A stretch of DNA of 35,839 nt. It comes from Verrucomicrobiota bacterium (GTDB lineage Bacteria > Verrucomicrobiota > Verrucomicrobiia > Verrucomicrobiales > DEV007). The notes under the pieces are model-generated. The model was given only the letters and a program-made list of their open reading frames with translations, did no database searches and was not told where the DNA came from. How positions within the stretch are numbered: the first letter of the stretch is position 1; every line of letters starts with the position of its first letter. Both the position numbers and the translations under genes were made by a program. Location of the stretch: the NCBI GenBank assembly GCA_024277195.1, contig JAJRVS010000052.1, forward strand, positions 1-35,839. Direction: 5' to 3'. Below, one piece after another: positions 30,671-34,587 of the stretch.

Positions 30671-31204
30671 ATGACCCCGGTGAATAGTAACGATGGAGAC
30701 ATACTCGTCAGTTGCTTCGACAATGTCGACTGGATCCGCGTGGAGGGAAAAGGTTCCTTTCAAAACAGCGGCAAGGTGAAAGAATTCACCCGCCAGAGCT
30801 TCGACAAAGGCCATCGTAATTTTGTCATCGATCTGGAAAACTGCCCTGCGGTCGACTCGACCTTCATGGGCACGCTCGCATCCATGGCGCTCAAGCTGCG
30901 CTACGAACCCGAAGGACGTGTGGATGTCATCAACGCCACCGGCCGCACCCGCGACGCCATGACTAGCCTTGGCCTTCATTGCCTGCTGGAGATGGACGAC
31001 GACGGCAGCGCATGGAAAGACGAGCGTGAACTCGTCGCCCTGAATCTAGGCAAGCCCCTGCCGCCACACGACGACCTGAGCAAACGAGAGGAAACCGCCA
31101 ATGTACTGGCTGCCCACGAAGCCCTGGTTGAAGCTAACAATGATAATTTTTCCCGCTTCAAAGATGTGTTGGAGTATTTGAAAGACGACCTCGATGGTGA
31201 TTAA
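30671..31204 (+). CDS. STAS-domain protein (anti-anti-sigma-like) with C-terminal extension
   Basis: This 177-residue protein has a STAS fold at about 10-112: FVIDLENCPAVDSTFMGTL carries the DS(T)xG-type motif with S63 as the likely phosphorylated residue. A helical, acidic extension (about 115-177) follows. In partner switching such a protein binds an anti-sigma kinase when unphosphorylated. The phosphatase gene that could reactivate it is 65 bp downstream. No RsbW-type kinase lies in the window. Confidence 0.87.
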   Translation: MTPVNSNDGDILVSCFDNVDWIRVEGKGSFQNSGKVKEFTRQSFDKGHRNFVIDLENCPAVDSTFMGTLASMALKLRYEPEGRVDVINATGRTRDAMTSLGLHCLLEMDDDGSAWKDERELVALNLGKPLPPHDDLSKREETANVLAAHEALVEANNDNFSRFKDVLEYLKDDLDGD

Positions 31205-31269
31205 AACACATAACGGGTCTCCACTAGCTTCCCCACCCCTCAAGTAGTGCCACACGGGTTCGACCGCTG

Positions 31270-32721
31270 ATGAACAGTCCCATTTATCTCATACTTATCG
31301 CCATCCTCTTGGCCGTCGTCGTGTTACTCTATCGGCGGCTGAATAAAAAAATCGCCCAGCTGAGCGTTGAGAAGGAGGCTATCGAAGTCGAAGAGCATCG
31401 CTTGTTTGACTTTCTCCATGGCCTCGGAGCTGCGTTACAAGAAGACAGCTCGCCCCCCAGCATGCACCGTTATATCGTCAACGGAGTCATCCGCGTAGTC
31501 AAAGCCGACGCCGGCGTGCTCTACTTGCTCGATACATCCGCCAAAAAATTGGTTCCCGTCTGCCTGAGCAAACAATTAGCGCCCGTCATCCCTCTGTCCG
31601 CTGATCTGGTCAAAAAAGCCACCGACAATGCCAACTCCCTACGAAGCTATTTGAGCTTGGCCACTGCTAAGATGGACTCCGGACTGCTCGGCAAAACACT
31701 GCAGGACGAAAAGCCTCTTTTTGCCCCGGCATTAACTAAACACCCTCTTTTCGAAGGCAGCAGTAATCCTTTTCAGGAAAACCTGGCAGTCATGACGGCA
31801 CCACTCATTTACGGGAAGAAAAAAATCGGCGTGCTCGCCGTCACCAAACACCACTCCGCGCAACCGGAAGAACCGGGCTTCACCGCCAATGACATCGACG
31901 TTTTCACCTCCATCGCCGAGCAGAGCTCCGTTGCCCTCGGCAGCGCCCTCATCCACACCGAAGCACACGAAAAACACCAACTCGAACAGGAATTGCGCAA
32001 TGCCAGTGAAATCCAACGCATCCTGCTACCCCGCTCCTCTCCCGGACTCAAAAACTATCATCTGGCAGCCACCTTCACGGCTGCCAAAATGGTCAGTGGC
32101 GACTACTACGATTATATCCCAGTAGACGATCACCACTGGGGGGTTGTGATCGGTGACGTCTGCGGTAAAGGCATCCCCGCGTCGCTCATCATGGCCATGT
32201 GCCGTAGCGTGCTCAGAAGCAGCGCGGGCGGACAATTTTCTCCAGCTCATGTACTGCATGCGCTCAACCGCGTGATTTTCCCGGATATCCGTGAGGACAT
32301 GTTCATCAGCCTGCTCTACCTCATCATCAAAGATGACAGCGGCGATATCGTGATGGCCCGGGCGGGTCACGACCCGCCGCTGCTCTGCCACCACGATCAA
32401 GAAGGTTCCATCGAAACCCTGGTCCCCGCAGGTATGGCAGCAGGCATTGACATGGGGGATGTTTTTGACCGCATCGTTCAAGATTACCGTTTCACCATGA
32501 AAACCGGAGATGTGCTCCTGCTCTACACTGATGGAGTCACGGAAACGCTCGACGCCGAAGGCGAGGAATTCGGCGTGGAAAGGCTCTCGGATGTGCTCAA
32601 GGCCTCTCACCACGAAGGCGCCGATGTTGTTATCGAAAAAATTTCTGCTGCGTTAAAGGACTTCAGCGGACATGACCAGCAAATCGACGACATCACCTTG
32701 ATTGCTGTCGAAAAGCGTTGA
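31270..32721 (+). CDS. Membrane-anchored GAF-SpoIIE PP2C phosphatase
   Basis: This 483-residue protein has one membrane helix (4-21), a short linker, a GAF sensor domain at about 45-230, a helix (235-252), and a SpoIIE/RsbU-type PP2C domain from about 260 to the end. Metal-site motifs are present: SGDYYD at 276-281, GDVCGKG at 295-301, AGH at 365-367, YTDGVTE at 419-425 and DDIT at 473-476. It should dephosphorylate a STAS protein in response to a signal bound by GAF; the STAS gene just upstream is the obvious partner. The domain layout has no RsbW-like ATPase. Confidence 0.92.
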   Translation: MNSPIYLILIAILLAVVVLLYRRLNKKIAQLSVEKEAIEVEEHRLFDFLHGLGAALQEDSSPPSMHRYIVNGVIRVVKADAGVLYLLDTSAKKLVPVCLSKQLAPVIPLSADLVKKATDNANSLRSYLSLATAKMDSGLLGKTLQDEKPLFAPALTKHPLFEGSSNPFQENLAVMTAPLIYGKKKIGVLAVTKHHSAQPEEPGFTANDIDVFTSIAEQSSVALGSALIHTEAHEKHQLEQELRNASEIQRILLPRSSPGLKNYHLAATFTAAKMVSGDYYDYIPVDDHHWGVVIGDVCGKGIPASLIMAMCRSVLRSSAGGQFSPAHVLHALNRVIFPDIREDMFISLLYLIIKDDSGDIVMARAGHDPPLLCHHDQEGSIETLVPAGMAAGIDMGDVFDRIVQDYRFTMKTGDVLLLYTDGVTETLDAEGEEFGVERLSDVLKASHHEGADVVIEKISAALKDFSGHDQQIDDITLIAVEKR

Positions 32722-32802: not shown

Positions 32803-33390
32803 ATGACAAACGATCCTAAACAAGAAACCACTCCTGAAGATAATGTCGAAGAACTGAACATCGACGAAATATCCCAGGATCACGAAGAGAGCGAAGCTAC
32901 CCAAGCGGAGGCTGAAGATAAGCAAGCAGCAGGGACTCCTGAAAACGAAGTCGAAAAATGGCGCAATCTGGCACACCGCAACCAAGCTGAACTGGAAAAT
33001 TTTCGCAAACGCATGGCGCGTGACAAAATGGACGCGATCCAATACAGCAACCTCGGTCTGCTGGAAGAATTATTGCCCATTATTGACAACTTTGAAATGG
33101 GACTGATGGCAGCCAAGGACGTCTCTGCAGAATCAGTCATTTACCAGGGCATGAACATGGTTCACCAGCAGATGCAAAATTTTCTCACCGACCATGGAGT
33201 CGAACGCATCTAAGCCACCCTCAAAAAATTCGACCCCAATCTACACGAAGCCCTCGAGCAGCGCCACAGCGACGAAGTGCCTGAAGGCGATGTGATCCAA
33301 ACCACCCGCCACGGCTACAAATGTAAGGATCGGCTGTTGCGCGCCTCTAACGTAGTGGTCTCGAAAGGTCCCGAGTCCGCCGCAGAATAA
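32803..33390 (+). pseudogene. grpE: GrpE nucleotide exchange factor, interrupted by an in-frame TAA
   Basis: Residues 1-136 give an acidic N-terminus, then EKWRNLAHRNQAELENFRKRM (coiled coil) and the four-helix part ending HGVERI. A TAA at 33211-33213 follows. In the same frame, 58 more residues continue with FDPNLHEALEQ, VIQTTRHGYKCKDRLLRASNVVVSK, the typical GrpE C-terminal beta domain that contacts DnaK. The stop takes the place of one residue with no gap, so a single base change (for example from GAA) explains it. A sequencing error, a real nonsense mutation or readthrough all remain possible. A truncated product would lack the DnaK-binding beta domain. dnaJ follows 21 bp later. Confidence 0.88.
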
Positions 33391-33411: not shown

Positions 33412-34587
33412 ATGGCAACTATGGCCAAACGATGTTATTACGAAGTTCTCAGCGTCAGCCGGGAAGAAACCAAAGACGGTATCAAAAAATCTTACCGCAA
33501 ACTCGCGGTGAAATTTCACCCTGACAAAAACCCCGACGACGACACCGCCGAAGATAAATTCAAGGAAATCGGCGAGGCTTATGAAGTCCTCAGTGACGAG
33601 CAAAAGCGCGCCGCTTATGATCGCTACGGACATGGCGCTTTCGGCGGCGGTGGCCCGACGGCTGGTCGCGGCGGCGGAGCGGGTGGCTTCCACGACCCCT
33701 TTGACATTTTCCGTGATGCGTTTGGATCACAAGGCGGTGGTGGAGGCAGTATCTTTGATGAAATTTTTGGCAATGCCGGTGGTGGACGTCGGCGCCAGAA
33801 ACAAGGTCTCAAACGTGCCGGCGCCGACTTGCGCTACGATTTGCAAATCAGCCTCGAAGAAGCTGCATTTGGTATCGAAAAAGAACTCGACCTCGAAAAA
33901 ATGGGGCGCTGTGATCGCTGCGAAGGTTCGGGTTCGACCAAGAGTGGTGAAGTGCGTTCCTGCGGAACTTGCGGAGGAGTTGGCCAGGTCGTCGCTTCCC
34001 GTGGTTTTTTCCAAGTCCAACAACCTTGCCCTTCTTGTAACGGTGCTGGTGAAACCATCGCCGATCCCTGTAACTCATGTAACGGCGAAGGACGGGTCAA
34101 AAAAACCAGCCGCATCAAACTCAAAATTCCAGCAGGAATCAGCCAGTCTTCCCGCCTACGCTCATCAGGCAATGGCGAGGCGGGCATCTGCAAAGGCCCC
34201 TCCGGCGACCTCTATGTGGTTATTCATTTGCGCGAACATGAAATCTTTGAGCGCGAAGAAGACGACCTCTATTGTGAAATGCCCATCTCATTTGCCCACG
34301 CCACACTCGGCGGTGAACTGGTGGTGCCCACTTTGGAAGGGAAAGCTTCGATAAAAATTCCTGCAGGCACACAAACCGGCACCGTTTTCAGGCTGCGTGC
34401 CAAGGGCATGCCCATACTCGGATCCAACAACAAAGGCGACCTTTTGGTCAATACCCAGATCGAAGTCCCCACTCGATTGAATAAAGAACAAAAAGACAAA
34501 CTACAAGACTTCGCTGAAAGCATCGGAGAAGAAAATTCTCCCATCCATGAGACCTTCTTCGAAAAAGCCAAAAAGTTTTTCAAATAA
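33412..34587 (+). CDS. dnaJ: Chaperone protein DnaJ
   Basis: This 391-residue protein is a class I Hsp40 that delivers substrates to DnaK and stimulates its ATPase. The J domain carries HPD at 36-38, followed by a Gly/Phe-rich region (about 73-125). Four zinc repeats follow: CDRCEGSG (167), CGTCGGVG (184), CPSCNGAG (206) and CNSCNGEG (220). Then come the two C-terminal beta domains. A second Met at residue 4 (33421) may be the real start, as the conserved MAKRxYYEVL begins there. It lies between grpE and rsmE; dnaK is not in the window. Confidence 0.95.

Follow-up and report, generated by a model that had tools for sequence, protein, structure and literature searches.

GrpE is normally essential in Escherichia coli (PMC4753570; PMC3686724), and most of the contacts with DnaK are made by its beta domain (PMC4753570). 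The grpE gene described here, which encodes an Hsp70 helper, resembles those of E. coli (1DKG) and Geobacillus (4ANI) in its full-length family match, its domain order and its adjacency to dnaJ, and the frame past the stop retains conserved beta-domain segments such as FDPNLHEA and the GYK..DRLLRASNVVVS end; it differs in that an in-frame TAA stands where E. coli GrpE has residue 143. Bacterial readthrough and recoding, whether by suppressor tRNAs, leaky UGA or the insertion of selenocysteine or pyrrolysine, share with this locus an in-frame stop and a conserved frame behind it, whereas the codon here is UAA and comes without a suppressor tRNA, a structure, conservation of the stop or a shared inserted residue. 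The likeness to isolated stops in draft metagenome assemblies and to young pseudogenes extends to the single stop, the intact frame, the sense codon in close relatives and the presence of several unrelated interrupted genes within one assembly; here, however, core genes usually needed for growth (grpE and rodA) are among those hit, and frameshifts are not in excess. The isolated stop in grpE most likely stems from an incorrect or minority base in the assembly, or from a very recent mutation, and not from a novel reading of a stop codon; nor is it alone, as four other isolated stops occur in the same draft.

The grpE locus and the position of the stop

The window, that is the whole stretch of 35,839 nucleotides that was analysed, lies within contig C401 of a draft assembly (G000) of 5.49 Mb in 422 contigs, 95.55% complete. 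Its closest relatives in the public genome collection are two Verrucomicrobiota metagenome assemblies, here called the sister species, and a search of genome contigs for other sequence of the same species returned only these two and one distant relative, while viral contigs yielded no match. The sequence and the list of open reading frames both bear out the initial annotation in that grpE, which starts with ATG at 32803, is interrupted by a single TAA and then continues in frame as far as a second TAA. The features of the locus are:

32803..33213, + strand: grpE up to the stop, 136 residues comprising the N-terminal tail and the helical dimerisation part (open reading frame list, Pfam GrpE, alignment to 4ANI and 1DKG)
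33211..33213, + strand: in-frame TAA of grpE; GAA (Glu) at the same codon in both sister species
33214..33390, + strand: grpE frame past the stop, 58 beta-domain codons and the second TAA (33388-33390); undecayed
33412..34587, + strand: dnaJ, intact, the next gene after grpE; named by sequence similarity to the DnaJ of L104
34606..35379, + strand: gene for a putative RsmE-like 16S rRNA methyltransferase, intact (open reading frame list, gene order as in L104)

Homologous genes stand in the same order, grpE-dnaJ-rsmE, in L104. Directly before grpE, at 30671-32721 of the window, a gene for a STAS-domain protein is followed by one for a GAF-SpoIIE phosphatase, and the two likely form a partner-switching signalling pair.

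When the stop is written as X, the read-through frame, whose only internal stop is this TAA, matches the Pfam GrpE family (PF01025) from position 4 to position 165 of the 165-position profile (E 5.4e-44; 150.6 bits against a curated cut-off of 25.8). Such a full-profile match shows that the read-through frame is no chance open frame, and its product also aligns with the solved GrpE structures 4ANI and 1DKG. No uninterrupted frame that includes the beta domain is present for grpE in this assembly, while the gene is uninterrupted in both sister species. Counted on a gap-free alignment, the TAA falls on residue 143 of E. coli GrpE, whose beta domain we take to start at about residue 138 (1DKG structure). 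The stop therefore appears, from the alignment, to sit just within the beta domain, a few residues past its start and near the boundary with the helical part. The earlier description of a beta domain lying behind the stop is accordingly right as to the intact frame, but not in placing the stop ahead of the whole domain.

Conservation around the stop and other grpE copies

The comparison with the grpE of relatives, called for in the initial annotation, supports its view that the stop replaces one alignment column without a gap and that a single base change suffices, as the GAA of both sister species is one G-to-T step from TAA. Across 33 relatives the column holds E, P, S, D, N, Q or K, encoded by sense codons in all of them; this mixture indicates that the residue itself is not conserved. 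The absence of decay past the stop, also noted early, is upheld by the substitution pattern: relative to the sister, dN is 0.087 and dS 0.965 over 53 codons (dN/dS 0.09), and just two amino-acid changes are specific to this genome at sites where both sisters agree. This portion of grpE appears, on these sequence comparisons, to have stayed under purifying selection during most of the separate history of the lineage. An undecayed and selected frame leaves three options: a very young stop, a codon that does not act as a stop, or a stop that the real gene lacks.

A second grpE, which the initial annotation had suggested looking for, was found in the assembly neither by profile nor by DNA search, and the DnaK of this genome is intact. 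Among 75 genomes of the family only one other grpE with a reported internal stop was seen (G042), and no further one is present among the matches listed for 388 genomes of the phylum. The G042 gene (L083, contig C4:44520-44955, minus strand) changes frame close to its start and again in the FDPN..HEA segment, perhaps through indel errors of a long-read assembly, a fault that differs in kind from the TAA seen here. A separate case is a genome of the same order (G187; a single contig of 2,664,102 bases, rated 100% complete) in which GrpE was not found by profile and a protein search detected none of GrpE, DnaJ and RsmE, all three of which were recovered from the control genome G170; no grpE lies at its contig ends, and a missing stretch is possible.

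Further isolated stops in the same assembly

Interior nonsense codons were surveyed in 1.08 Mb of this genome (out of 5.49 Mb) and in 1.14 Mb of the sister genome G002. Filters on codon position and local identity were applied in the screens, as unfiltered ones were swamped by antisense frames and by frames upstream of the start. Stops near predicted starts (e.g. on C126, C69 and C289) and an apparent split in an antisense frame on C371 were judged by eye to be artefacts and left uncounted, and the count below rests partly on such visual judgement. Five convincing interior nonsense codons, that of grpE included, were found in 330 matched genes (125,859 codons) of this genome, and the reverse comparison gave no convincing interior stop in 337 genes of the sister. 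The difference of five to none is modestly significant (Fisher's test, p ~0.03; p 0.014 with a frameshift added). The other four stops and the frameshift are:

C336:9159 (L163:9159), minus strand: RodA-type SEDS gene; TAA, AAA (Lys) in the sister, protein 91.5% identical to the sister's
C371:18390 (L116:18390), minus strand: ABC-transporter permease; TAG, TCG in the sister
C32:32373 (L106:12373), minus strand: GH123-like protein; TAG, CAA in the sister
C383:10966 (L115:10966), minus strand: acetylesterase-like protein; TAG, TCA in the sister
C93, L165 ~5740, minus strand: sulfatase-like gene (named by eye); a frameshift splits the gene, which in the sister has 488 residues

All five genes interrupted by a stop keep an intact frame past it. 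The rodA gene is single-copy here, and the other SEDS gene, FtsW-like, is intact. With two TAA, three TAG and no TGA, the stop spectrum fits random single-base substitution, for which fractions of 0.40, 0.43 and 0.18 are expected in this codon usage; the absence of UGA among five stops would arise by chance in 37% of cases. The survey combined, on small numbers, an excess of isolated stops in unrelated conserved genes with a random-substitution spectrum, the pattern looked for as a sign of wrong or minority bases. If all five stops were false, the implied error rate would be ~3e-4 per base (1e-4 to 8e-4). No stop interrupts any of the 59 ABC domains of this genome, and the 97 genes added in the last extension of the survey brought no further interior stop. 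The less complete sister assembly contains an ABC-transporter domain with one in-frame TAA (G001:C114:1514-1993, minus strand).

Origin of the grpE stop

We consider it probable that the TAA reflects a consensus error, or a base from a minority strain or cell, at 33211 of the draft assembly. The four further isolated stops shift the weight towards an explanation by draft assembly or strain variants, and scattered wrong or minority consensus bases account for all five stops at once. Such bases are favoured also because it is improbable that grpE and rodA should both have been freshly broken in one viable free-living genome. From this we infer that the base written at 33211 is not that of the main population. 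The locus would then hold an ordinary single-copy grpE beside dnaJ, and the living population would most likely encode a full-length GrpE acting as usual, namely as a dimer whose beta domain opens the nucleotide cleft of DnaK. A weak point of the error reading is that ~3e-4 per base would be a high rate in a short-read consensus with fair coverage, and the stop-free ABC domains indicate that the assembly is not bad everywhere. Together these two observations leave a substantial share to a real nonsense mutation of recent date.

Real nonsense pseudogenes do occur in bacterial genomes. A real and very recent mutation in this strain, which would leave a 136-residue GrpE with its dimerisation part but without its beta wing, is possible, although we regard it as the less likely origin of the stop. 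A single G-to-T change would suffice, the undecayed sequence past the stop fits a very young event, and the other isolated nonsense codons could themselves mark young pseudogenes. DnaK would, however, be left without its exchange factor, and the lineage would have to grow poorly, be near loss or carry a compensating change. It also counts against such a mutation that grpE, normally essential in E. coli (PMC4753570; PMC3686724), has no second copy here, and that single-copy rodA would need to have been broken freshly in the same genome. Among the three readings put forward at the outset, recent mutation and base error both remain favoured, while functional readthrough has gained no support.

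Functional readthrough, in which a suppressor tRNA or leaky termination would put an amino acid in at UAA and would cover the other UAA and UAG codons as well, is improbable. The conserved frame past the grpE stop and the occurrence of several UAA and UAG codons but no UGA in conserved genes speak for it, but the lack of UGA among so few stops is, as noted above, easily due to chance. Of the 51 tRNA genes found in the 95.6% complete draft, all examined with ARAGORN, not one carries an anticodon that would decode UAA or UAG, and three weak hits on contig C68, inspected by eye, read neither codon. The release-factor family is represented by three intact genes, two of which have the length of RF1/RF2. 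UAA and UAG terminate genes here at roughly the sister's frequencies (TAA 103 and TAG 74 in 330 sister genes), and in orthologous genes all three stops are kept or swapped freely between the two genomes. The fold of 33205-33300 is no better than that of shuffled sequences (z -0.52) and gives no sign of a stimulatory structure past the grpE stop. The stop itself is not conserved, with sense codons in the sisters and in all other relatives examined, and the residue at its site is variable. The sister residues at the five stop sites are E, K, S, Q and S, so that no single inserted residue is implied. Readthrough of UAG, where measured in bacteria, is very low; in Pseudomonas putida it amounts to about 0.01%, in a study that did not measure UAA (PMC9481147). 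A broader tolerance of isolated UAA and UAG codons, by which core genes (grpE and rodA among them) would still yield full-length proteins through leaky termination or an undetected suppressor tRNA, is likewise quite improbable.

An alternative code with UAA or UAR reassigned was considered and rejected, as the release factors are intact and stop usage is close to that of the sister. The early conclusion that a general code change is unlikely holds on these grounds, although it started from the mistaken view that most genes here end in TAA: TGA ends 161 of 337 genes, TAA 117 and TAG 59.

That grpE encodes a stable functional variant, either the 136-residue protein or a two-piece GrpE made through internal restart, is very improbable: the stop does lie near the boundary of the helical part and the beta domain, but past it there is no ATG and only GTG and TTG codons without an obvious ribosome-binding site, the first possible restart (GTG 33277) would drop the conserved FDPNLHEA segment, the beta domain makes most of the DnaK contacts (PMC4753570), in a plant homologue the replacement of a single valine of this domain leaves almost no activity (PMC6987454), and no examined relative is split by a stop at this place.

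At the level of the single gene, the preferred reading of a wrong or minority base makes this an ordinary grpE with one suspicious base and of little consequence. At the level of the pattern, the assembly would contain conserved genes interrupted by isolated nonsense codons of false or minority origin, and automatic annotation would label grpE, rodA and further genes as broken. Should reads confirm the five stops, the list would offer a short and direct way of testing how this lineage tolerates nonsense codons. At L068:5733-7731 and 3456-4952 on C68, the contig with the weak tRNA hits, about ten tRNA genes, several of them low-scoring, form a cluster near genes for a TROVE (Ro60-like) protein and an HNH endonuclease. 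The region may be a mobile element, or else a locus for RNA repair.
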